The position numbers were made by a program, and so were the translations under genes. From the NCBI GenBank assembly GCA_014894455.1, contig JADBLN010000112.1, positions 1 to 49,248 of the forward strand: a DNA stretch of 49,248 nt, read 5' to 3'. The stretch is from Acidobacteriota bacterium (GTDB taxonomy: Bacteria; Acidobacteriota; Aminicenantia; Aminicenantales; Saccharicenantaceae). Shown in pieces: positions 30,228 through 40,308 of this stretch (position 1 is the stretch's first letter; each line of letters starts with the position of its first letter). The notes beneath the pieces were generated by a model. It was not told the DNA's origin and searched no databases. It worked only from the letters and a program-made list of their open reading frames with translations.

Positions 30228-30266
30228 CCGGAGGAGGGTATCGAACCCACACCCGAGTTGCCCCGG
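30228..30266 (-). repeat. Diverged tRNA-Leu 3' fragment (old attachment-site scar)
   Basis: 39 bases match the 3' end of the tRNA-Leu at 40223 with two mismatches, then identity stops sharply at 30267. No 5' half of a tRNA follows, so it is not a gene. It lies outside the present element and suggests an earlier insertion at the same tRNA. Confidence 0.7.
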
Positions 30267-30618: not shown

Positions 30619-30677
30619 AGTGCCGGTGGAGGGAATCGAACCCACACCCGAGTTGCCCCGGACGGGATTTTGAGTCC
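30619..30677. repeat. attL-type direct repeat (displaced tRNA-Leu 3' part)
   Basis: 59 bases identical to 40221-40279. It covers the tRNA 3' end up to the anticodon loop; the sequence then diverges at 30678, so no full tRNA exists here. Marks the left boundary of the integrated element next to the integrase. Confidence 0.93.
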
Positions 30678-30721
30678 ACTCGGCGGGGAGTTCTATCTGA
30701 CAGCTGGTCATTGACTTATGC

Positions 30722-31762
30722 CTAGTGGGTAATGGATTCTTTCGTGTATTCTTTCGTGTTGACTAGCGTTTCCACATCCGCCAGGAGCATTTCCTGGCTC
30801 GGGTGATGGTAATGGTCGAGGGAGAAGGACATGGAGTGATGCCCCATGATCTTCACGATGTTGACCGGGTTTGCGCCGCCCTCGAGGCTCCGGGTCTCGA
30901 AGGTGTGGCGGAGGTCGTGGAAGCGGAGGTCCTCGATCTTGGCCCTCTCACACGCGGCCTTAAAGCCGCAGCCGATACGGTGGAAACCTTCACCGCGCGA
31001 CTTGTGGAAGATAAAGCCCTGGTCCTTGAGAAGCGGCCGGAGGAGCTCGAGGACCGCGCTGTTCAACGGGATCCGCCGAGCCCGCTTGCTCTTCGAGTTC
31101 TCGGCCGGGATGACGATCGACGAGTACGCGAGGTTGACATGCTCGGCCCGGAGCTTGAGGATTTCGCCCTGACGCATCCCGGTATGCAGGGCCAGCGTGA
31201 TCATGGGCTTGAGATACGGCGCCGCCTCCGCGAGAAGCCGCGCCTCTTCCTCCCGCGTCAGAACCCTCTCGCGCCTAGGTTCGTCCCGGAGGTTAATCTT
31301 GATCTTCCGCAGCGGGAAGGATTCAAGCTTGTCCCAGTCCAGGGCCTTAGACAGAATCCCTTTCAAGCATGAGAGTTCCCGGTTGACGGTGCCGAGGGCG
31401 ACCAGGGCGCGGCGCTCGACGCGGTATCTCTCGACGCGCAGAAGCGAAATCTGAGAAAGTGGGAGGTCCCCGAAACACCTATCGAGGTGCTTGATTGACC
31501 GCTCGTCGCGCTCCCAGGATCGTTTATTTGGCTTGGCGTAGAGCTCAAGGTATTCCGCGGCAAAGTCCTTGAACAGCGGATCTTCGACCTCGGCCGGGCT
31601 TTCCTTCGGACCGGCGCTGAGTTCGACCCGCAGTCGAGCCATCGCGGCGCGGGCCTCTTCCTTGGTCTTTCCGCCGATCCGGATATACCGCTTCCCGTCC
31701 AGCGAAAAGTCAAAGAACCATCGGCCGTCGATGAGCTTGAGGTTGCGTTCTTTGGTCTTCAT
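30722..31762 (-). CDS. Tyrosine recombinase (phage-type integrase)
   Basis: 346 residues. Residues 1-50 resemble the arm-binding AP2-like N-terminus (DGRWFFDFSLDGKRYIRIGG), 60-160 the core-binding SAM-like domain, and 170-330 the catalytic domain with R197 (HTGMRQGE), H282 and R285 (HDLRHTF), H308 (GHHS) and nucleophile Y318 (DHYHH). It integrates the element at tRNA-Leu(CAA). It ends 45 bp inside the left att repeat, and its last codons overlap a pair of putative arm-binding sites. Ribosome site GGAG eight bases upstream of ATG. Confidence 0.95.
   Translation of the reverse strand: MKTKERNLKLIDGRWFFDFSLDGKRYIRIGGKTKEEARAAMARLRVELSAGPKESPAEVEDPLFKDFAAEYLELYAKPNKRSWERDERSIKHLDRCFGDLPLSQISLLRVERYRVERRALVALGTVNRELSCLKGILSKALDWDKLESFPLRKIKINLRDEPRRERVLTREEEARLLAEAAPYLKPMITLALHTGMRQGEILKLRAEHVNLAYSSIVIPAENSKSKRARRIPLNSAVLELLRPLLKDQGFIFHKSRGEGFHRIGCGFKAACERAKIEDLRFHDLRHTFETRSLEGGANPVNIVKIMGHHSMSFSLDHYHHPSQEMLLADVETLVNTKEYTKESITH
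30739..30759. promoter_or_regulatory. Putative integrase arm-type sites, left end
   Basis: CTTTCGTGT at 30739-30747 and 30751-30759, 12 bp apart. The same pair with the same spacing is at 40104-40124 near the right end and, inverted, at 36895-36915. They fall within the last codons of the integrase gene. Confidence 0.6.
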
Positions 31763-31766
31763 GATT

Positions 31767-31979
31767 TTAACTCCACGATGCCCCAGTCACCCGCGACTTC
31801 CCGCGCCGAGTCCACTCGCGCATCTCATCCGGCGAGAATGTCACGACCTGCCGAAAGCCGCACGAGGCGCAGCTGTACGTCACGAAAAGCCAACCTTCCT
31901 CATGCCTCTCCGTAGTCGTGAGCGGCGTGATGCAAGTCCCGCAGCGCCGCTCCGTCAAATAGGGTCTGTCCGCGTTCAT
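31767..31979 (-). CDS. Small zinc-ribbon-like protein
   Basis: 70 residues with two C-x-x-C pairs (RRCGTC and YSCASC) spaced about 22 residues apart, the layout of a single zinc ribbon. Its ATG overlaps the stop of the TOPRIM gene by four bases and it ends 4 bp before the integrase start, so the three are one transcript. No named family; it may bind nucleic acid or a protein partner of its neighbours. Confidence 0.65.
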   Translation of the reverse strand: MNADRPYLTERRCGTCITPLTTTERHEEGWLFVTYSCASCGFRQVVTFSPDEMREWTRRGKSRVTGASWS

Positions 31980-32887
31980 GGTCTCCTTCCCGATTCGTCC
32001 ATGAAGCTCAGGACCCTACCCTTGAGCTTCTTGAGCCGGGCGAGGTCAGCCCTCTCCTTCTTGACCTGTCGCTCGTATTGCGGCCGGTCTAGGATGATTC
32101 CCTCGATGGCCGCCTGGACCTTCTCCTGGAGGACCTTCGGGTGGAGTGCGTCGAGCTCGACGGCGACCTCGCCGTGCTCTAGGACGTGGCTCTCGTAACG
32201 CGGATCTGATCGCTTCGCCGCCGTCGGCTTATGCGGCAGTTGGTAGCGGTCGATATCCTCCCGCGTCAGGGCGATCCGATGGAATTCAACGTCAACATGA
32301 TGCTCGTCTCGAAGGCTCGTCTGGATGTCCTTATCCATCGCGCAGCCGCTCGGGTCGAAATCTCCGATGTAGAACAGGACGGCCCCTTCATCGTATCCGG
32401 CCACCCGCTCGGCATAATCATGGAGGAAGGAGACCGAGATCTCACCCCGGCAGATAACGAGGGGAACGGTGTAATTCTTGCAGATCGGGCCAATGATGTT
32501 GGAGACGGCGTCTTTCTCCGTCCACACCTCGCAGCGGGTCTGTTGGGCATGGAAAACGTCCCGGCGGTATCCGGCCAGGAACCGCTTCCGGTGTGCCTCG
32601 ACGAACGGTTCCGCAGATTCCCAACCGCTATAATCGCGCAGGATGCGGTTCCGGTCCTCGATCACATCCCAGGAGACGAGGCCGTCGAGCCGCGCCCATT
32701 TGAGGCATTGGCCCAACATCGTGTATTCGCTCATCGTGTTCTCGTAGAATTCCGTGGCGACGAGTCGGTAATGGATGGCTCTCAGCGTGAGCGGGTGGAA
32801 TTCCCGCAGCTCCTCGATGACGGCTTGGGCGGCATGGAGCTTCCGCAGAATATGCTCGGTCCACGCTATTCGGCGACGCTGCTTCAT
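31976..32887 (-). CDS. Stand-alone TopoVI-A/Spo11-like TOPRIM protein
   Basis: 303 residues. N-terminal region LTLRAIHYRLV (33-43) resembles the winged-helix 5Y-CAP domain of topoisomerase VI A, with Tyr40 as candidate nucleophile. The TOPRIM domain has the glutamate in VWTEKDAVSN (E124) and the D-x-D-x-x-G motif FYIGDFDPSG (D176, D178). HRIALTREDIDRYQLP, downstream, is also typical of TopoVI-A/Spo11. No B-subunit ATPase gene is present in the element, as for the Mini-A proteins reported on mobile elements. Might cut or nick DNA for replication, packaging or recombination; function is inferred. ATG overlaps between this gene and both neighbours. Confidence 0.78.
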   Translation of the reverse strand: MKQRRRIAWTEHILRKLHAAQAVIEELREFHPLTLRAIHYRLVATEFYENTMSEYTMLGQCLKWARLDGLVSWDVIEDRNRILRDYSGWESAEPFVEAHRKRFLAGYRRDVFHAQQTRCEVWTEKDAVSNIIGPICKNYTVPLVICRGEISVSFLHDYAERVAGYDEGAVLFYIGDFDPSGCAMDKDIQTSLRDEHHVDVEFHRIALTREDIDRYQLPHKPTAAKRSDPRYESHVLEHGEVAVELDALHPKVLQEKVQAAIEGIILDRPQYERQVKKERADLARLKKLKGRVLSFMDESGRRP

Positions 32888-33099
32888 GGCCTCCTCCGTT
32901 TCGCCCGGTCGCGGAATCCGACTCCGCCTTTGATGAACTTCTGGAAGTCCTGCCGCCGTACGCGCCAGAAGCGTCCGCCGCCGGGCTTGAACGCGGGAAG
33001 CTGGCCGGAGCTGATCCAGCGGGCAACGGTGTGACGCTCAACCTTGAGAAGCGAACAGATCTCTTCGACCGTCAGGAAACTGTCCAACGCGTCTCTCAT
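32884..33099 (-). CDS. HTH (MerR/excisionase-type) DNA-binding protein
   Basis: 71 residues: SFLTVEEICSLLKVERHTVARWISSG is a helix-turn-helix and wing of the HTH_17/excisionase class (split here as SFLTVEEICSLLKVE then RHTVARWISSG). GGGRFWRVRRQDFQKF completes the domain. ATG 33099 is preferred to the TTG 12 bases upstream because GGAGG lies five bases before it. It opens the TOPRIM-zinc-ribbon-integrase transcript and faces the AlpA-like gene across an 80-bp control region. Confidence 0.8.
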   Translation of the reverse strand: MRDALDSFLTVEEICSLLKVERHTVARWISSGQLPAFKPGGGRFWRVRRQDFQKFIKGGVGFRDRAKRRRP

Positions 33100-33110
33100 C
33101 TTTGCCTCCA

Positions 33111-33140
33111 ATACTACCCTATACTACCTTAGACTACCTG
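33111..33140. repeat. Three tandem 10-bp repeats (likely operator)
   Basis: ATACTACCCT, ATACTACCTT and AGACTACCTG at exactly 10-bp period, one DNA turn. On the minus strand they overlap the -10 region of a TTGACA promoter (-35 at 33139-33144) for the leftward HTH gene. They are the likely binding site of one of the two flanking HTH proteins. Confidence 0.7.
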
Positions 33141-33154
33141 TCAAGCACTTTCTT

Positions 33155-33184
33155 TTGACCTGTCCAGTGCTCTAATGCTAGAAT
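33155..33184 (+). promoter_or_regulatory. Rightward promoter for the AlpA-like gene
   Basis: TTGACC (33155-33160), 18-bp spacer, TAGAAT (33179-33184). The expected start near 33191 leaves only about three bases before the ATG and no ribosome site is seen, implying leaderless translation. Confidence 0.6.
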
Positions 33185-33193
33185 AGTGCGCAT

Positions 33194-33367
33194 ATGGAAA
33201 CGCCCTATCTGACCAAGCGGGAACTTTGCGAATATCTCAAGGTGAGCCGTTGGGTGATTGAGCGGCTTATGCGAGAGGGCTTGCCCCATTTCCCCCTCGG
33301 CCGTCGCGTCCTGTTCAAACGTGAGGACGTGGACTCTTGGCTCAAAAAAAAGAAGCTGGTCAAGTAG
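33194..33367 (+). CDS. AlpA/excisionase-like HTH protein (divergent)
   Basis: 57 residues, METPYLTKRELCEYLKVSR, with a HTH_17 helix-turn-helix and the wing LGRRVLFKREDVDSWL. This is the AlpA/Xis class that activates integrase genes or favours excision in phages and P4-like and PICI satellites. It is the only rightward gene in the element. Its 3' end overlaps by 8 bp the convergent small membrane peptide. No Shine-Dalgarno; apparently leaderless. Confidence 0.8.
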   Translation: METPYLTKRELCEYLKVSRWVIERLMREGLPHFPLGRRVLFKREDVDSWLKKKKLVK

Positions 33368-33473
33368 CCCTCCCGATCCGCCGCCTCCGCCGCCCCACGA
33401 TAGCACCTCCGGCCAGAACGAGGACGCCGAGGACGAGGATCACCCACCCCGCGATGTCCATGATGGTGTTCAT
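33360..33473 (-). CDS. 37-residue single-helix membrane peptide
   Basis: MNTIMDIAGWVILVLGVLV, then LAGGAIVGRRRRRIGR: one strongly hydrophobic helix followed by an Arg-rich tail, the usual inside-positive pattern. Its ATG overlaps the stop of the 86-residue gene by four bases (ATGA), which supports translation. Possible regulator or holin-like peptide; no family named. Confidence 0.5.
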   Translation of the reverse strand: MNTIMDIAGWVILVLGVLVLAGGAIVGRRRRRIGRAT

Positions 33474-33730
33474 GATTTCAGCCCTCGCTCCGCGTCGTCG
33501 CCGAGCTTAACTGCCAAGCCGCGAGCCTGGGCGAGCAACGGTAACAGTTCTTCTACGGTCCGGGGCGAGAGGGACAGGATCCGGGGGTGCTCCGGGTCTT
33601 CCGGCTTGTCGGTACCAGCGGGCAGGGTTTGTAAATGGACATATGGATGGCCCCGATAGAGGGCGCAGAAGACGATTAAATCCTGATACGGATTCTTCGA
33701 AACGCGGCCGACGACGTTGTTAGCTGTCAT
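33470..33730 (-). CDS. Small conserved-looking phage protein of unknown function
   Basis: 86 residues: a beta-rich first half (LIVFCALYRGHPYVHLQTL), then RILSLSPRTVEELLPLLAQA, which forms one long helix. The strands-then-helix outline recalls PC4/YdbC-type single-strand DNA-binding domains, but the match is only by shape. Ribosome site AAGAGGAG. Coupled to the 37-residue peptide. Confidence 0.6.
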   Translation of the reverse strand: MTANNVVGRVSKNPYQDLIVFCALYRGHPYVHLQTLPAGTDKPEDPEHPRILSLSPRTVEELLPLLAQARGLAVKLGDDAERGLKS

Positions 33731-33819
33731 TCAAAAATCTCCTCTTGTTAAAACCGGCAGGCGCCGAGGTCCCACAGGATCAACCGCGACGCCCACCGGG
33801 GCGGGCCGTCCCGCACTGA

Positions 33820-34392
33820 TTATTCGCGTTCCTTGAAGGGCTCGGTAAAGCACTGCCTGAGCTCGTCGATGTGGCCGAGTGCGAGGTGGCGGAACTCCGG
33901 GGTTTGTATGCCCACGATGTGATCCTTTTGGATCCGCCTGACCGCTTCGTCAAATTTCGCCTGAAGCGCCTTGTTCACCGCCACGGCCGCCGTCTTCGTT
34001 CGGAAGTCGGACCAAACCACCGTGCGCCGGGCCTTCAGGGCCTCCTGCGCGATGCCCTCGAGCTCCTTCAAAGCCTCGGCCACCCCGTCTTGCCGCTTGA
34101 ATTCTTGCGCCTGCAGCCCGCGGGTGATCAGGTCAACGGCGGACTCTCGCACCTCGGGCGCGATCAAGCCATGCTCGAGCGCCCATTCCCAGCTTTGCAT
34201 GTCACTAAACGAGAGTGTTTCGCCCTTGGCCTTGGCCACATCCACGCGCAGCTTGAGCGCGGCGAGCCGTTCCTTGTCCTCGTCCTGAATCAGCGCCTCA
34301 TTCCCCTCGGACCATACGGCCCCTCGTGGAAGGGGCATTCCGAGGGCTCGCATTTTCCTAGCCTCTTCAGCTGTCGGATCCATGATGTTCAT
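33820..34392 (-). CDS. Hypothetical element protein (190 aa)
   Basis: Mainly helical, charged, soluble protein; no motif recognised. It has KLRVDVAKAKGETLSFSD near the N-terminus and RRIQKDHIVGIQTPEFRH near the C-terminus. ATG 34392 is chosen because AGGAGA sits seven bases upstream; the ATG at 34398 touches that site. In the transcript after the terminase large subunit and the 124-residue gene, where tailed phages usually have portal and capsid genes, but it is too small and unlike either. It could be a packaging or scaffold accessory (inference). Confidence 0.65.
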   Translation of the reverse strand: MNIMDPTAEEARKMRALGMPLPRGAVWSEGNEALIQDEDKERLAALKLRVDVAKAKGETLSFSDMQSWEWALEHGLIAPEVRESAVDLITRGLQAQEFKRQDGVAEALKELEGIAQEALKARRTVVWSDFRTKTAAVAVNKALQAKFDEAVRRIQKDHIVGIQTPEFRHLALGHIDELRQCFTEPFKERE

Positions 34393-34402
34393 CTTCATTC
34401 TC

Positions 34403-34777
34403 CTATTTGATTTTTTTGATACGGACGCCTGAATGGCGCCGTAATTGTTTTTCCAAAAGCCTCTGCTGCTTAAACTTTGGGTCCGCGCGTTTCTTTTCCT
34501 CCATCCGCGCCAGAGCTTTTACTGTGTATTCGGGCGTCCGCTCGAAGGCGTCCTGCAACGCGCGCGACGCCTCCCCGGTCTGCCGCACCCTGGCCATGTC
34601 CGCGGCGAGTACCCGAATCTCCGCCCGCGCGGCCGGGTCCGGGAGCGTACAACCCTCTTTCACAAGAAGGACAACATCACTCGCGGAGCTCGTCGAGCCC
34701 CTTCCGTCGTAGAAATCGACGCCCATGACAACCCCACAAAAGCCGGGGGTGAAGTGTTGCACGATGTAGACCTTCAT
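34403..34777 (-). CDS. Hypothetical element protein (124 aa)
   Basis: Starts MKVYIVQHFTPGFCGVVMGV, a beta-strand opening, then a helical, strongly basic C-terminus (KKRADPKFKQQRLLEKQLRR). Its ATG overlaps the terminase stop by four bases, so the two are translated together. Family unknown; a basic tail suggests nucleic acid or terminase contact. Confidence 0.62.
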   Translation of the reverse strand: MKVYIVQHFTPGFCGVVMGVDFYDGRGSTSSASDVVLLVKEGCTLPDPAARAEIRVLAADMARVRQTGEASRALQDAFERTPEYTVKALARMEEKKRADPKFKQQRLLEKQLRRHSGVRIKKIK

Positions 34778-36045
34778 ATGGAACTCACCGTCGTTTTGCG
34801 CTGGGGAAAGCGGTAGGACATGAGCATCCTGAGCGCGTCGCAGGCGTGATCCGATATACCGTCCTTGAGCGGGACCTCAGACTGCACGTTATCCTTCGGG
34901 TCCGGATAGCGATACATCTCAAGCGCCATGATCAGCTGCGGACAGTTCTTCGAGACTTTGAGTTTCCCGTTGCGCAACCACTTCCGGATCACGTTCACCC
35001 CGTCCTGAATGACGCCGGGGTGGTTCGTGTTGTACCGCACGACGGGCCAGCCGAAAATCGCCCGGAGCTCGGAAATCGAGTCAAGCCCCGCCGCCTCCGA
35101 CTTGGCCGAGCCTGCCGGGTCACACGCGATGAGCGAAGGCGCCCGGCCCGGGACCATGTTCTTGATCCCCAGCCCGATCACGGGAATAGGCGTCTCTCGT
35201 TTGACGTATTCGGCAAACACCGTGACATTCTCTTGCGCGTCGATGTTGGCAAACAGAACCACGGTCGGCGCTGACCAGCCGAAGTCCATGCCGCAAACGT
35301 ACTCGGCGTTGACGAGGAACGGGATCGGGCTGGCTGGGACGTGCCTCTCCCGCGAAAAGTCCGTGAACACCTGTCCCCCAAAAGTGGTAAAGTTCGCCTC
35401 GTACTCCTGCGCGAAGACGCGAGGATCCATGTCCCGCCGCGCTCGCACGAGCTCCTCGGGAGGGATAATCCCCGCCTCCGACGCCTTCACATGGAACGAC
35501 TTCCAGTCGGAAGAGTTCCGCTGCTCCATCGCATAGACGTCGTAGAAGTGGTTGTAGCCCGCCGGCGTCGAAAGGAAGAGCACCGGAGCCTTCGAATCCG
35601 ATGTAGCCGGCTGCAATACCTCATCCCATATCTCCCGTTTCATAATGGCGTACTCGTCGATCACAAGCCGCGAGAGCTTCACCCCGCGCAAACTGTCTGG
35701 CTTGTCGGCCCCTTTGAGTTGGATGACGGAGCCGTTCGTCCACTTGACGAGGAGGTCCGATTCGACGGTCTTCTCAATGCGGCCGTGGGGCCTGAACGGC
35801 GCGATATACTGCATCAGAAGCGCCCACGCGATATCCTTCACCGCGCCATACGTCTGACCTATGAGCCAGTTCACCGAACCTGGGACCTGAGCGGCGCCCT
35901 GAACGAGTTCATCCACCCCGAGCACAGTCTTGCCTGAGCGACGGCCAGCCGCGACTACGCGGAAGCGGTGAGGATCCACCTTGACCCGCCTCTGCCACGG
36001 GAGCAGCGCATAGGGCAGCCGGGCCGTGGGCGCCTCTTCAGTCAT
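34774..36045 (-). CDS. terL: Phage terminase large subunit
   Basis: 423 residues. ATPase motor: Walker A AGRRSGKT (33-40), Walker B LVIDE (128-132) and the coupling motif near FLSTPAGYNHFYDV (157-170). RNase H-like nuclease: D254 in CGMDFGWSAP, D309 in IACDPAGS and D399 in SDHACDALR. It packages DNA into a prohead in tailed phages. Upstream, the 104-residue gene overlaps it by 8 bp. The unusual point is that no portal, protease or capsid gene follows. All key residues are intact, so the protein seems under selection. Confidence 0.93.
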   Translation of the reverse strand: MTEEAPTARLPYALLPWQRRVKVDPHRFRVVAAGRRSGKTVLGVDELVQGAAQVPGSVNWLIGQTYGAVKDIAWALLMQYIAPFRPHGRIEKTVESDLLVKWTNGSVIQLKGADKPDSLRGVKLSRLVIDEYAIMKREIWDEVLQPATSDSKAPVLFLSTPAGYNHFYDVYAMEQRNSSDWKSFHVKASEAGIIPPEELVRARRDMDPRVFAQEYEANFTTFGGQVFTDFSRERHVPASPIPFLVNAEYVCGMDFGWSAPTVVLFANIDAQENVTVFAEYVKRETPIPVIGLGIKNMVPGRAPSLIACDPAGSAKSEAAGLDSISELRAIFGWPVVRYNTNHPGVIQDGVNVIRKWLRNGKLKVSKNCPQLIMALEMYRYPDPKDNVQSEVPLKDGISDHACDALRMLMSYRFPQRKTTVSSI

Positions 36046-36352
36046 GACCCCTATCCTCGCGCTTGACCGGAGACAGGTTTGCCAGGATCATGCTGTCGTA
36101 GCCGGACTGGTCATACAATTTGGTGATGAACTCACCCGCCTCCTGGGCGCTCTTGAACATAAAGCGGCTCAGATCCACCTCCAGGACGCAGCCCCTGAAT
36201 CTCTTGATATAGACAAAGTTTCCCAGGCCCTCAGTCCAGACCTCGGCGCTCCCGATGATGTTCCTCTCCGGTGCTTCAACCGTGGCCTCAGCCGGCGTTT
36301 CAACCGCGGCGACCGCCCCAACCTTTTCCTTCATTTCCTTTTTGTTTTTCAC
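36038..36352 (-). CDS. Hypothetical element protein (104 aa)
   Basis: GTG start at 36352 after GGAGGTAAC. The N-terminus is low-complexity and Ala/Glu-rich (KEKVGAVAAVETPAEATVEAP); residues 35-90 are globular with VDLSRFMFKSAQEAGEFI. It lies between the probable small and the large terminase genes, with 8-bp overlap onto terL. Not recognised; could be a terminase accessory. Confidence 0.6.
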   Translation of the reverse strand: MKNKKEMKEKVGAVAAVETPAEATVEAPERNIIGSAEVWTEGLGNFVYIKRFRGCVLEVDLSRFMFKSAQEAGEFITKLYDQSGYDSMILANLSPVKREDRGHD

Positions 36353-36360
36353 GTTACCTC

Positions 36361-36843
36361 CTATGCCTTCTTACAGGCGTCGATATAGTCGTCGTCGTCA
36401 GGGTCGTCCTGGCCCGTTTCTACTGCGCCATTTGCCCCAGGTTGAACGAGGGGCCCTTCCCCTGCCTGATTCGACGCGCCAGCCTCCGGGAGGGCTTTTA
36501 CGTCGTGCGCCGTGATGATCAAGTCAGTTTCCGGGTCGCCAGGGTAGAGCACTTGGAGCGGCTTAGTGTGCTCGAGCTCGAGGCTGTGCGCCTGATGCGC
36601 TTTGCCCAGGCCCCTATCAAACGCCTCCGCCAGGGCCCACGGCTGCCCCGCATAGGCCCGCGCAAGCAACACGTCAACGAGCTTCCCCACGTCCGCCCTC
36701 TCGCTGAAGATCCGCTTGAACTCGCCCTTGAAGTCCAGCACGTCCCGGCTCTTCGACCCGTCCAGGTGACGCCTCGGGTCCGTTCCGCGTGCAAACGGCT
36801 TGCCACGAGGCTTTAATTCTTTTCGTTTCAATATGTTCGTCAT
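36361..36843 (-). CDS. Probable terminase small subunit-like protein
   Basis: 160 residues. The start KPRGKPFARGTDPRRH resembles the DUF5681-type N-terminus common in proteins encoded directly before terL. A helical region follows (FKRIFSERADVGKLVDVLLARAYA; here residues about 40-62), and the C-terminus is acidic (DDPDDDDYIDACKKA). Small terminases recognise the packaging site. Assignment rests on position and N-terminal likeness, so it is tentative. Confidence 0.55.
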   Translation of the reverse strand: MTNILKRKELKPRGKPFARGTDPRRHLDGSKSRDVLDFKGEFKRIFSERADVGKLVDVLLARAYAGQPWALAEAFDRGLGKAHQAHSLELEHTKPLQVLYPGDPETDLIITAHDVKALPEAGASNQAGEGPLVQPGANGAVETGQDDPDDDDYIDACKKA

Positions 36844-36894
36844 TGAGAATGACCTCCTAAGCTTGCAGGTGCTGCACCTCTCGCATACCCGTAG

Positions 36895-36923
36895 ACACGA
36901 AAGAAGACACGAAAGTTTCGTGT
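36895..36923. promoter_or_regulatory. Internal cluster of integrase-arm-like sites
   Basis: ACACGAAAG at 36895-36903 and 36907-36915 (12-bp spacing, inverted relative to the ends) followed by TTTCGTGT at 36916-36923. Same 9-mer and spacing as at both element ends. Confidence 0.55.
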
Positions 36924-37053
36924 ATTCTCGCCCCTTCTACCCATATGCCGCGCTGGACTAAGCATCCATGTAGGCAGGCAAGTACGCCTGATAGGCCCCT
37001 GGGAATCAGGGTCTGGCGGGAGAGAAGTGGGGGTTTTTGACCCTGTTTTTGAC

Positions 37054-37255
37054 CTGTTCCCGGAGTGTGGGAACAGCTCGATTTAAAACAGTCTCTCAAA
37101 AGGGGTGTTTTGACATCCACCTGTTCCCGATGGTTGGAACAAGTCGTCTTGGGGGGAACTCTGACCTGTTCCCGCTGTTCCCGACCTGTTCCCGCTGTTC
37201 CTGGAAAGTGGTGAAGTGACCTGTTCCTGATTCCCCCCCCCTTAGGGGGGAACAG
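37054..37255. repeat. CTGTTCC iteron array, candidate replication origin
   Basis: Seven direct CTGTTCC copies start at 37054, 37121, 37166, 37175, 37186, 37195 and 37221, with inverted GGAACA(G) at 37069, 37136 and 37249. The middle four form a 20-bp unit repeated in tandem. A C8/G6 hairpin lies at 37232-37252. The array is directly 3' of the helicase gene, the usual place or neighbourhood for Rep-bound iterons. Confidence 0.65.
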
Positions 37256-37268
37256 GACAGCGTCACGG

Positions 37269-38642
37269 TCAGGTTGCGGGCTCATAGCACTTGGCTCCTC
37301 GGAGTCCTTTGTATGTCCTCCAGCGGCCCACGCGCTCCCCGCGGTCGAGCAGGCCGGTGAACGAGGTCTTCTTCTTTGGGAGTCCCTCTGCGCCCTTTGC
37401 CCAGGCGAAGAGTTCTGTTTGATTCTTGCCGCACCCTTCGCCCACGATGTAGTCGGCGATGGCGTTGAGGGTTTCGAGGTCGGGATCCTCGGTGAGCTCG
37501 AGCCCGTGGCCGGTTAGGATCATATGGAGGATCTCGGAGGGGGCGAACCTGGTCTTTTTCCCGGTGCCGAGGCAGAGGGGGGAGCCGAGCGGGATCTCGC
37601 CGCCCGTTTCCTCTTCGGAGTCCCGGCTCTTGGACTTGAAGAAGCAGATCGTATGGTCGGCCAGGTCTGCCCAGGCGCCCGAGGCTTTGAGTTCGCGGTC
37701 GTCGTACTTGGGCGTGTGATGGAGGATGAGGATAGTCATGCCCATGTCCCGGAGCTCTCGGCAGCGGCCCATGACCAGGGCTGCGACATCGGAATCGTTC
37801 TCCTTGCCGTCATGGGCGCTCCGGCTCGTATCAATAATGATCAGGGCGTTCGAGGGGAGCATGGTCTTGTAGAGGGTCCAGCCCGGGCCGTCGAATTTCG
37901 GCGGCCTCGGGGTCATGGTCGAATGCCAGATCTGAGCGCTCATGGAGCGCATGTTGAGGGCCTCGGCGCGGTCCTTCATGACGGCGAGGGGGTTCTCCAT
38001 GTCGATATAGACGACCGGCCTTTGCTTTGTCGCCCTGCCGAAGATCGGGAGCCCGGCCGAGACGGCTTCCGCAATCATGAGGCAGGCCCAGGACTTGCCG
38101 ATCGAGGTCCGGCCGTAAAGGACCGTGACGGAGTTCTCCGGCAGGAGTCCCCCGACCAGCCATTCGGTGTGTATGTCCATCGCCCTCAGCTCTGGGAAGC
38201 TGATGAGGGGGTTCCCGGCCGGCTGGTCCGCGCCTTCGACCTCGAGCAGTCTGAGTTCCTCCTGCATCGCCGTGACGCCCAGGTGATCGGAGACGCCGGA
38301 TTTCGCATCCCTTTCGATCTTAGCGACGATCCGCACTTTTAGGTCAGCGGCCGCCATGCGGCGGACTTCCTGCCGGAACTCGGCCGGCTTGATTGAGACG
38401 ATGCCGCCAGCGATCGCGGTGAGGTAGTCTTGCACTCCGCTGGACGGAGTCCGCACCCGGACGGTAGCCCACGAGGCGATCCCTCCCTCTTCCATGATCT
38501 CGCGGATCGCGGCCCAGACCGCGCGCTGAGCGTCGGACTTCCAGAAGTCGTCGGGGATGTTGAAGCCGTCGAGGAGGGCGGGGCTGTTGACGATAAAGCC
38601 CAAGAGCGTGTCGCGGTCTGTAGGTTTGTATTCCGTGCTCAT
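37269..38642 (-). CDS. RepA/DnaB-like replicative helicase with AAA ATPase (RecA fold)
   Basis: 457 residues. Residues 1-110 resemble the DnaB N-terminal helical domain (TLLGFIVNSPALLDGFNIPD). Residues 155-350 are a RecA-type ATPase of the RepA/AAA_25 type: Walker A GRTSIGKS (177-184), Walker B LIIID (267-271), and the arginine/H motif ILILHHTPK (304-312). Residues 380-457 may be a winged-helix tail. It would load or unwind DNA at the adjacent iterons. ATG overlaps the stop of the HTH gene by four bases. Confidence 0.85.
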   Translation of the reverse strand: MSTEYKPTDRDTLLGFIVNSPALLDGFNIPDDFWKSDAQRAVWAAIREIMEEGGIASWATVRVRTPSSGVQDYLTAIAGGIVSIKPAEFRQEVRRMAAADLKVRIVAKIERDAKSGVSDHLGVTAMQEELRLLEVEGADQPAGNPLISFPELRAMDIHTEWLVGGLLPENSVTVLYGRTSIGKSWACLMIAEAVSAGLPIFGRATKQRPVVYIDMENPLAVMKDRAEALNMRSMSAQIWHSTMTPRPPKFDGPGWTLYKTMLPSNALIIIDTSRSAHDGKENDSDVAALVMGRCRELRDMGMTILILHHTPKYDDRELKASGAWADLADHTICFFKSKSRDSEEETGGEIPLGSPLCLGTGKKTRFAPSEILHMILTGHGLELTEDPDLETLNAIADYIVGEGCGKNQTELFAWAKGAEGLPKKKTSFTGLLDRGERVGRWRTYKGLRGAKCYEPAT

Positions 38643-38872
38643 CTTGTCCTTCTCCGGTCGAGTGGCTGGGCCTCCGCCGGCAGGACGAGCCCGCCCTCGA
38701 GCATCTTGTCGCAGCCGACGCGATCTATGCGGATCTGGCCGCGCCCACCGCTGACGGAAGGCATTCGGGTATGCGGAATTTTGCGGGCCCGGCAGAGTGC
38801 CAGGATCGTCTTGTAGTGCATCGAATAGACCTCGGCCGCCTCCGTCACCGTGATAAAGCGGCGGCCGTCCAC
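38639..38872 (-). CDS. HTH DNA-binding protein (excisionase-like)
   Basis: About 77 residues from GTG 38872, which follows the XRE stop by one base; an upstream in-frame ATG at 38917 would overlap the XRE gene by 44 bp. FITVTEAAEVYSMHYKTILAL is a helix-turn-helix of the HTH_17 class, and QIRIDRVGCDKML gives the wing. Overlaps the helicase ATG by four bases. Start choice uncertain. Confidence 0.68.
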   Translation of the reverse strand: MDGRRFITVTEAAEVYSMHYKTILALCRARKIPHTRMPSVSGGRGQIRIDRVGCDKMLEGGLVLPAEAQPLDRRRTR

Positions 38873-38873
38873 G

Positions 38874-39086
38874 TTATTCCCCGCCGCGTTTCGTCCAGCC
38901 CGGGAACAGAATCTCAACCGGCCAGTCCAGGGCCGCGGCGATCCGTTGCTGTAGTTCCGGGCCAGCCTCGACGAAAGACGTCTCCACTCGCGAAAGGGTC
39001 GTCCTGTCGATCCCGAGCCGGGCGGCGAATTCGGCCTGCGTCCAGCCCCTGATGAGCCTTATTTTTCTGATCTGTGAGGTGTTCAT
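38874..39086 (-). CDS. XRE/Cro-CI-type repressor
   Basis: 70 residues, almost all a lambda-repressor-like HTH: RLIRGWTQAEFAARLGIDRT, then LSRVETSFVEAGPELQQRI. First in the early operon XRE - HTH - helicase. The DNA just upstream has a perfect palindrome overlapping the promoter, consistent with autoregulation and control of replication. Confidence 0.88.
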   Translation of the reverse strand: MNTSQIRKIRLIRGWTQAEFAARLGIDRTTLSRVETSFVEAGPELQQRIAAALDWPVEILFPGWTKRGGE

Positions 39087-39096
39087 ATCTTCTCCC

Positions 39097-39112
39097 GCGA
39101 TTCTATAATCGC
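39097..39112. promoter_or_regulatory. Operator palindrome GCGATT-N4-AATCGC at the XRE promoter
   Basis: Perfect 6-bp arms, 10 bases upstream of the XRE ATG. On the minus strand TTGACA at 39128-39133, 17 bp, GATTAT at 39105-39110 forms a promoter whose -10 lies inside the palindrome. Confidence 0.6.
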
Positions 39113-39153
39113 ACGGGATACACCTTCTGTCAAGCGTAAGTTGTAGATAATGA

Positions 39154-39180
39154 ATAACTTAGACGGATTGCCTAAGTTAT
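39154..39180. repeat. Perfect 9-bp inverted repeat upstream of the XRE promoter
   Basis: ATAACTTAG and CTAAGTTAT with a 9-base centre, in an AT-rich gap; a half site TAAGTT lies at 39137-39142. Most likely a second operator. No T-run on either side, so a terminator is less likely. Confidence 0.5.
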
Positions 39181-39242
39181 ACAGTGAGGGTTGAGGGTGT
39201 CTGCCCGGAGGAGGATAAGGGTCTGGCCGGGGCCGGCGAGAA

Positions 39243-39941
39243 TCAAACCCGGGACGGCGTCAGGCGGTCGATTTCCTTTTCGATTCTCTCGATGGCTTTT
39301 TGGATGACGACCCGGGACGTGGGTTTCTGTTGGTCCCTGATCTGGCCCAGAGATAGCTTGAACTGCCCGGCCGGATCGTGCAGGTCGTACCAGCACAGGT
39401 CTCTCGCGAAGGTCCGCTTCTCTCTCTCGTTCAAAGGGTCGCCGAAGACCTTTTTCTGGGCGACCTGGATCTCCGTCCATATGAACTCGAGGTCCTTTTT
39501 CGACGTCCAGGGATGGATCCTGACGAGCAAATATCCGTCTTCCCGGGCGATGCTGTCGTGCAGGGCTTCGCCAATACCGTGCCAGGGGTCGCCGATGAGG
39601 GGGTAGATGGTAAAAGACTTTAGATCCGGCTGCGTCTTAGACAGCCGCGAGAACGGGATGCTGATATGAACAGACGGCAGCGCGTGGGTGCGTTCCGCCA
39701 AGATCCCCATGTCCCCGTTCCAGTCCTCGCTGATTCTCCATCGTCGGCAAAAATCCTGCCATTCGTCGCCGTTCGGGATGAGGAATTCCTTGATGATAAG
39801 GTCTTGAACTTTCGCAAATTCGTCTTTGAAGGCGACGCTTCTTTTTAGGAGCTCGCCGCGGATCTCGCCCTGCGTGAATTTTCTACGACTCTCTCTGATC
39901 CGCTCGGCGACATGTCCGCTTGTAGGTTTTCTGATTCGCAT
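39243..39941 (-). CDS. Hypothetical element protein (232 aa)
   Basis: Soluble, rich in Trp and charged residues: EWQDFCRRWRISEDWNGDMG, LVRIHPWTSKKDLEFIW, FARDLCWYDLHDPAGQF. The C-terminus is helical and basic. Ribosome site GGGAGA. It is the first gene at the tRNA-proximal end, upstream of the XRE repressor, separated by a 156-bp control region. Accessory genes of satellites and prophages often sit at such ends; anti-phage function is possible but nothing in the sequence proves it. Confidence 0.7.
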   Translation of the reverse strand: MRIRKPTSGHVAERIRESRRKFTQGEIRGELLKRSVAFKDEFAKVQDLIIKEFLIPNGDEWQDFCRRWRISEDWNGDMGILAERTHALPSVHISIPFSRLSKTQPDLKSFTIYPLIGDPWHGIGEALHDSIAREDGYLLVRIHPWTSKKDLEFIWTEIQVAQKKVFGDPLNEREKRTFARDLCWYDLHDPAGQFKLSLGQIRDQQKPTSRVVIQKAIERIEKEIDRLTPSRV

Positions 39942-40220
39942 GTCTGTCTCCCTTAACAGAATTCCCTATAGAGAAACTCGGGCCAGGCGGTAGGGATTGC
40001 CGCTTTTCGGTGATCAACCTAGGCCCGGAGTTTTCATTCATGGTTTCAGTCTATGCCCCTTCTCTCGGAAGTCAACGTTGTGCACATAGGCGGGTCTGAG
40101 CATCTTTCGTGTTGGCTTTCGTGTTGCTCGTTCCCATCAGTTTGATTTCGGCTCCTTTTGGCTCCCTTGCTCGGTCAAAAGGACAGGCCCCTAGCTTGGG
40201 CCTAAGTCGCTGATTTTGAA
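39942..40220. other. Right-end non-coding region of the element
   Basis: 279 bases between the 232-aa gene and the right att repeat. Apart from the arm-like sites at 40104-40124 I see no gene or clear promoter. Confidence 0.6.
40104..40124. promoter_or_regulatory. Putative integrase arm-type sites, right end
   Basis: CTTTCGTGT at 40104-40112 and 40116-40124, 12 bp apart, about 97 bp inside the right att repeat. Matches the pair at 30739-30759. Confidence 0.6.
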
Positions 40221-40279
40221 AGTGCCGGTGGAGGGAATCGAACCCACACCCGAGTTGCCCCGGACGGGATTTTGAGTCC
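40221..40279. repeat. attR-type direct repeat (within tRNA-Leu)
   Basis: Identical over 59 bases to 30619-30677. It runs from the tRNA 3' end through the variable arm into the anticodon loop. Confidence 0.93.
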
Positions 40280-40308
40280 CGCGCGTCTGCCAGTTCCGCC
40301 ACACCGGC
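40223..40308 (-). tRNA. tRNA-Leu(CAA)
   Basis: 86 nt. The acceptor arms GCCGGTG/CACCGGC pair fully, the anticodon stem GGGA/TCCC encloses CTCAAAA with anticodon CAA, and the long variable arm and GGTTCGATTCC T-arm are those of a class II leucine tRNA. CCA is not encoded. It is the integration target: its 3' 57 nt belong to the repeat, and the gene is restored by the element. Confidence 0.95.

Follow-up and report, generated by a model that had tools for sequence, protein, structure and literature searches.

A repeat-bounded tRNA-Leu element of Aminicenantia with terminase genes and no detected portal or capsid gene

A compact integrated element from an Acidobacteriota bacterium of the class Aminicenantia (assembly GCA_014894455.1, contig JADBLN010000112.1) is described here, in which an intact large terminase subunit gene (terL) and a probable small-subunit gene reside beside integration, regulation, and replication genes, with no portal, capsid, tail, or lysis gene detected. 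The stretch of DNA analyzed, referred to as the window, comprises 49,248 nt, and positions are those of the window unless another locus is named. Within it, 9,602 bp separate two 59-bp direct repeats that are 100% identical (30619-30677 and 40221-40279), the right one constituting the 3′ part of a tRNA-Leu(CAA) gene (40222-40308, minus strand). The empty site is found in a close relative of the same genus (genome G004, locus L038), where the attachment (att) core is present once, with 58/58 bases matching, and where the tRNA is directly followed by an OmpA-like gene, the same gene that flanks the window element on the left. The element is integrated site-specifically between direct repeats, and the 9.6-kb tRNA-Leu unit delimited in a preliminary description of this DNA has thus been borne out, as have its assignments of an integrase, an XRE regulator, a divergent AlpA-like gene, a helicase, and TerL, all confirmed by family searches. 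All reading frames of the element are intact.

Terminase genes and the search for virion genes

The boundaries and the packaging region comprise the following features (L007 is a phage contig and D a sister element, both introduced below; aa, amino acids).

30619..30677: attL, 59-bp core, a perfect copy of attR by repeat comparison
40221..40279: attR, inside tRNA-Leu(CAA) (tRNA at 40222-40308, minus strand)
36361..36843, minus: candidate terminase small subunit (TerS-like, p160), 160 aa, by homology and position
36038..36352, minus: 104-aa protein (p104) between the TerS-like gene and terL, no family match
34774..36045, minus: terminase large subunit (TerL), 423 aa (Terminase_6N 1.8e-9, 6C 3e-6, phrog_2 1.6e-42)
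34403..34777, minus: 124-aa protein (p124), N-terminal half related to a head-module gene of phage L007
33820..34398, minus: 192-aa protein (p192), all-helical as modelled, no homologue found
33470..33730, minus: 86-aa protein, with a homologue (29%) in the corresponding position of element D

The terL frame runs uninterrupted through 423 codons. Its product retains the Walker A (GRRSGKT) and Walker B (LVIDE) motifs as well as the acidic positions of the nuclease (D254, D309, and D403), which are also conserved in its phage relatives; the protein matches solved terminases, T4 gp17 among them. It is 65-67% identical to the TerLs of phages of this host clade, the value for phage contig L007 being 65%. 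Since L007 and a complete prophage in genome G003 have several genes in common (63-75%), L007 counts among the phages of this host group, and the window terminase therefore appears to be derived from phages of its own hosts. A TerL comparison across genome contigs yielded distant relatives only, among them L055, which resembles an ordinary phage.

The product of the gene at 36361..36843 is 39% identical to that of the gene immediately preceding terL in phage contig L005, and 30% to that of the gene upstream of terL in genome G014, where a portal gene comes after terL. The TerS candidates matched no TerS model in Pfam, p160 included. Judged by homology and position, this gene probably encodes TerS, so that the window unit would harbor both terminase subunits. 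The preliminary description had proposed an own TerL without any capsid gene: TerL is intact and no capsid gene was detected, but a TerL-only unit no longer fits, given the TerS-like gene. The G014 locus itself is a 3.5-kb contig (L071, G014:C333) on which a TerS-like gene and a window-type terL are directly followed by the portal gene; this portal is close to that of the G003 prophage, and the contig represents a phage of the same host family that uses a window-type terminase.

Two small genes had been described after terL, where portal and capsid genes would be expected. Three (124, 192, and 86 aa) lie between terL and the alpA/xis block, and the lack of a detected portal or capsid gene among them stands. 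The 124-aa protein is 40% identical over 60 aa to the product of a 107-aa L007 gene located after the major capsid gene. The 104-, 192-, 86-, and 232-aa proteins of the element had no match in family searches, p192, p124, and p104 had no relatives in searches against phage genomes, and p192 had none among viral contigs. An assignment of p192 to the coiled-coil family that follows TerL in sister elements was rejected, as there is no similarity. The structural model of p192 consists of helices only (pLDDT 78) and gave no significant structural match to any fold; by this model, the largest gene after terL would not encode a capsid or portal fold. A role as a scaffold for helper capsids would be a guess.

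No portal, capsid, tail, or lysis gene was detected in the window element by family, PHROG, phmmer, and tblastn searches, and no Sid family match was obtained in it. Queries for portal, capsid, and tail-tube proteins (twelve, drawn from five phages or prophages), together with the portal of the viral locus L124, had no match in the satellites, whether by phmmer or by tblastn in six frames. In PHROG scans of the larger uncharacterized proteins of the bounded elements, a few proteins of element L109 left out, neither a portal nor a major capsid protein was found. As the presumed portal of L007 likewise escapes PHROGs, an argument from size was added: the only window element proteins of at least 200 aa are the integrase, the topoisomerase, TerL, the helicase, and p232, and few satellite proteins of at least 200 aa remain without assignment.

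Integration, regulation, and replication

The remaining genes and cis-sites are as follows (letters denote sister elements).

30722..31762, minus: tyrosine integrase (Int), 346 aa (PF00589 3e-25; 35-38% to sister-element integrases)
31767..31979, minus: zinc-ribbon-like protein, 70 aa, next to int also in element H (58%)
31976..32887, minus: topoisomerase/Toprim-like protein, 303 aa (phrog_6247 1.6e-53; weak DUF2399)
32884..33111, minus: HTH_17 excisionase-like (Xis-like) protein, 46-68% conserved in sister elements
33111..33138: 10-bp operator-like repeats between the divergent xis and alpA, same position in B, D, and I
33194..33367, plus: AlpA-like regulator, 57 aa, divergent (HTH_17 9.3e-11; 45-62% in B and D)
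37033..37256: iteron array (CCTGTTCC x6 and partial copies), just past the helicase stop
37269..38642, minus: replicative helicase with DnaB-N and RepA-like core, 457 aa (AAA_25 2.6e-23)
38639..38917, minus: HTH_17 protein, by family search
38874..39086, minus: XRE-type repressor, 70 aa (HTH_3 3.5e-10)
39243..39941, minus: 232-aa protein (p232), with homologues at the corresponding end of elements F and G (42% and 30%)
30739..30759, plus: paired arm-type repeat CTTTCGTGT, attL side, by repeat count
40104..40124, plus: paired arm-type repeat CTTTCGTGT, attR side, by repeat count
36895..36915, minus: third CTTTCGTGT pair, upstream of the packaging operon, by repeat count

The topoisomerase-like assignment of the preliminary description holds, and so does its pairing of the helicase with iterons: CCTGTTCC occurs six times in 37053-37256, compared with nine copies in the whole 49-kb window, and the array is the probable replication origin of the element. 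A profile built from five helicase homologues matches RepA (2.1e-14) and DnaB. The repeat CTTTCGTGT occurs six times in the window, all copies being inside the element, where 0.12 would be expected, and the copies form three pairs with 12-bp spacing, one about 60 bp inside attL, one about 100 bp inside attR, and one mid-element. The two outer pairs look like integrase arm sites. The mid-element pair is identical to them, which poses the question of whether Int and Xis regulate the packaging genes.

Other traces of integration are found at the same site. At 30228-30266, 395 bp to the left of attL, the tRNA-Leu end is present in a third, imperfect copy, which matches the att core at 37/39 positions and is probably the scar of an older integration. 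A different element occupies the same tRNA-Leu(CAA) at L043 (12824-18960; G009:C4); it carries an integrase, a small HTH gene, and, as read by eye, HNH- and TIR-like genes, and no terminase. Two further loci that resembled islands at this tRNA, L040 and L044, were rejected, their content being mainly chromosomal-type genes.

Sister elements and the phages of their hosts

Many related loci were obtained when 142 genomes of the host's class were searched, first with the helicase as query and next with a second TerL lineage that was encountered beside it. Seven elements, the window's included, are bounded by direct repeats and span 8.8-15.4 kb, so that the element is not an isolated case. The six others are listed below; elements C, F, and G are interrupted by contig ends.

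B, genome G003: 14.7 kb
H, genome G003: 9.9 kb
D, genome G013: 13.6 kb, tRNA-Arg
I, genome G036: 15.4 kb, tRNA-Arg
L109, genome G054: 12.1 kb, tRNA-Arg
L122, genome G070: 8.8 kb, same tRNA-Leu(CAA) as the window element

Subsets of an int/xis/divergent-alpA/helicase backbone are common to B, C, D, F, H, I, and L109, and in most elements int lies near one end, xis is paired with a divergent alpA, and the helicase lies near the other end; the exceptions are H, which has a different replication-type gene, and L122, in which no helicase was recognized. Homologues of p232 sit at the far end of other elements. Iterons of 9 bp follow the helicase in B, C, I, and L109, with inverted pairs in B, I, and L109; the alpA-xis interval of B, D, and I contains repeats of about 10 bp; and repeats occur inside both ends of B and I. 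These cis-sites vary in sequence among the elements but hold their positions, a pattern expected of function and not of decay.

TerL is encoded by 6/7 bounded elements and a TerS-like gene by 7/7. In H, TerS was recognized by a PHROG model and TerL is missing; this element also carries a neck gene and, in our reading, a tape measure in two pieces and a chaperone-like gene. The additional genes of B encode a head protease (phrog_80, 4.5e-50), a protein resembling tail chaperones (phrog_2115), and one resembling tape measures, the last identified through homology to the tape measure of the G003 prophage; D encodes a neck protein (phrog_5), a tape measure (phrog_991, 2.8e-57), and a tail chaperone; and I has tape-measure and chaperone-like genes. 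A HicB/HicA-like toxin-antitoxin pair, read by eye, lies next to the att site of D (L068, 15486-16027).

Elements H, B, and C stand in tandem at one tRNA-type att site (L081/L065/L066; G003:C5, ~53.1-84.8 kb), so that G003 harbors three satellites and one complete prophage, its only portal-bearing prophage found. Of eight genomes tested with the Phage_portal family (PF04860), G003 alone matched. The match is the complete prophage, located beside a tRNA-Lys and encoding portal, protease, capsid, tape measure, TerL, and TerS. Satellite B and this prophage have proteases 58% and tape measures 33% (94% coverage) identical. By sequence comparison, the terminase, protease, and tape measure of these elements are homologous to those of phages of the same hosts. 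An L007-type portal was not found in the bacterial class, and the helper of the window element may be a virulent phage or be of a type other than those searched for.

The second TerL lineage is present in several of the capsid-less elements. Against 50,697 phage records it gave four partial matches only (best 28% over 57%), and in IMG/VR a single match, L124, a distant relative that has a portal. Its tree is mostly unresolved, and for this reason no claim is made of a single satellite clade or a single capsid-less origin. One member lies in a 16.4-kb bounded tRNA-Arg element (L120, 888-17310; G009:C4) that also contains an S77-like protease and a T4 Gp23-type capsid gene, and is possibly a capsid-forming satellite with a T4-like shell. 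Three loci with TerL and an S77-like protease (L118, L121, and L114) have several uncharacterized proteins in common and are maybe a second family of small elements; a serine recombinase was confirmed by Pfam in L118 and L121. Beyond the class, a 16.7-kb partial record from a methane-oxidizing enrichment (L126; KX853514, Virus Rctr16k) contains an integrase, a replication protein, a distantly related TerL, and a tape-measure-like protein, with no annotated portal or capsid, and could be a similar satellite in another host.

Packaging into helper procapsids, its alternatives, and known satellites

Site-specific integration, the anatomy of genes and cis-sites, an intact terminase, and a family-wide lack of portal and capsid genes are established, and on this ground the window element is read, at a probability of roughly 70%, as an integrative phage satellite that loads its own DNA into helper procapsids with its own TerS and TerL; excision, replication, packaging, the identity of the helper, and portal docking are the steps that we infer. 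The element would be repressed in its tRNA-Leu site and derepressed upon helper infection or induction. Int and the Xis/AlpA proteins would excise it via the paired arm sites on either side of attP, and the DnaB/RepA-type helicase would replicate it from the iteron array. The TerS-like p160 and TerL would then bind the element's own DNA, dock on the portal of helper procapsids, and fill them, tails and lysis likewise being supplied by the helper. The DNA might enter small heads or, as concatemers, full-size heads. Sister elements would do likewise, adding their own prohead protease, tape measure, tail chaperone, or neck protein, and their protease and tail genes may retune or block helper assembly. 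The satellite reading, already put forward in the preliminary description, is supported by the recurrence of the capsid-less layout across genera, tRNA sites, and att-bounded elements of the same class.

Several observations weigh against this proposal. Terminases related to the window's adjoin a portal gene in real phages (L005-L007 and contig 333 of G014), and the window's own terminase type was found in one satellite only. The capsid of L120 and the portal of L124 mean that the capsid-less state is not universal for the second TerL lineage; the expectation that homologues might always carry portal and capsid genes was not borne out in the seven bounded elements by protein or six-frame search, but a portal does stand beside related terminases and a capsid gene in L120. 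The failure of PHROGs on the presumed L007 portal means that sequence search alone cannot rule out every portal. The helicase (two scans) and the topoisomerase found no relatives among viral contigs, so that such elements are, as regards the helicase, unseen among sequenced virus-like contigs. A helper prophage, which the preliminary description had suggested looking for, was not found in the window's genome via PF04860 or the L007 portal, a search that covers two portal types only in a metagenome-assembled genome of 125 contigs.

The element might instead be a reduced, decaying prophage that lost its portal, capsid, tail, and lysis genes through a deletion between terL and the 124-aa gene, the remainder being inert. 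The portal gene directly follows terL in the phage relatives (L005-L007 and G014), the 124-aa gene resembles an L007 gene located after the capsid gene, as a deletion from terL into the head module would leave it, and of ~22 places with the second (type-2) TerL, three are broken or fragmentary. However, the window frames are all intact, and terL and the 124-aa gene overlap by 4 bases. The same layout is found in different genera and at different tRNA sites, where the terminase, the att and arm sites, and the iterons are intact; the virion genes retained vary from element to element, yet TerS or TerL is always kept; and sizes cluster at 9-15 kb, as is typical of satellites. This recurrence of the capsid-less arrangement in different genera, with frames and cis-sites intact, makes simple deletion from a prophage unlikely.

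According to a further alternative, the phage-derived genes mainly interfere with helper or invading phages as decoys, and the element spreads by generalized transduction or another route. Sister elements do possess genes for tape measures, tail chaperones, and neck proteins while the remaining tail genes are missing, and the Pseudomonas prophage defense Tab, which blocks tail assembly through the tape measure, is encoded between terminase genes (PMC10884400), the place where the window has its 104-aa gene; the G009 element at the same tRNA also contains the TIR-domain-like gene read by eye. Yet a full TerL with ATPase and nuclease residues and a TerS-like gene exceeds the needs of a decoy, an own origin and helicase would be expected if amplification were needed for packaging, and known satellites can combine interference with packaging. 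We regard interference as the main function as quite improbable. A complete small virus or satellite virus with capsid and portal too divergent to be recognized is very improbable: although the PHROGs failure on the presumed L007 portal indicates that divergent virion proteins exist in this host group, the largest protein besides integrase, topoisomerase, TerL, and helicase has 232 aa and homologues at far element ends, and p192 is modelled all-helical without a capsid or portal fold.

The proposed satellite does not coincide with the established families with which it was compared, as the preliminary description had supposed for PICIs, P4, and cf-PICIs, for each of which one defining feature was looked for and found lacking. 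Phage-inducible chromosomal islands (PICIs), both the Staphylococcus aureus pathogenicity islands (SaPIs) and those of Gram-negative bacteria, resemble it in size, att-bounded integration, XRE/AlpA-type control, a replication module with iterons, and element-encoded packaging specificity, and the conserved order of integrase, divergent regulators, and replication module (int, xis/alpA, xre, helicase and iterons) is present. PICIs, however, supply at most a small terminase subunit or an adaptor and use the helper's TerL (PMC10690885), whereas the window element has an intact TerL of its own. Capsid-forming PICIs (cf-PICIs) share the own TerS and TerL, the integrase, replication, and the 14-kb size class, TerL in the window element being assigned by family models and TerS by homology and position only. 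Yet cf-PICIs additionally code for capsid, protease, portal, and connectors and rely on the helper for tails alone (PMC10690885), whereas no portal, capsid, protease, or connector gene was detected in the window element, and some sisters carry tail genes instead. Since the defining feature of each is lacking, the window element is a phage satellite outside both PICIs and cf-PICIs.

The phage-inducible chromosomal minimalist islands (PICMIs) of Vibrionaceae are likewise very small, combine int, AlpA, and a replication gene, and have no known capsid-remodelling gene; they are defined by Fis and a DUF3987/DUF5906 primase, are packaged as concatemers in full-size heads, and the word "terminase" is absent from the paper describing them (PMC10803314). 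The window element differs in residing at tRNA-Leu rather than fis and in a replication gene that matches AAA_25 and not a primase family. P4-like satellites resemble it in integrase, AlpA, own replication, and reliance on helper capsid and tail, but P4, packaged by the P2 terminase at cos sites and encoding Sid (PMC10690885), has no terminase of its own, while the window element has TerL and no Sid family match. Both terminase subunits are also encoded by the Streptomyces satellites Mulch and Flayer, which encode portal, capsid, and scaffold and no recognized primase (PMC10690885). The prophages and phages of the Caudoviricetes (the G003 prophage and L005-L007) are the source of the terminase, protease, tape-measure, and head-module genes, but carry the portal, capsid, and tail genes that the window element lacks as detected. 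It does possess what is generally expected of a satellite, namely own replication and regulation genes without a full set of virion genes. Open-access literature searches retrieved no satellite with both terminase subunits but no capsid or portal, and the family of such elements is previously unlisted.

A broader proposal, on which we find the balance about even, is that capsid-less satellites are common in one uncultured class, where they take empty procapsids, replace the helper motor with their own TerS and TerL, and in many cases also replace the prohead protease and the tail ruler, one TerL lineage apparently residing mostly there. Known satellites either borrow the helper's large terminase or build a whole capsid. 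An element with a complete motor but no shell would demonstrate that hijacking of the motor-portal interface alone is possible, and it raises the question of on which portals a foreign TerL can dock. The sisters with tape measure and protease suggest that satellites may rewrite virion assembly stepwise. Searches keyed to the gene sets of PICIs, cf-PICIs, or P4 would miss this family, and similar elements may be overlooked elsewhere.

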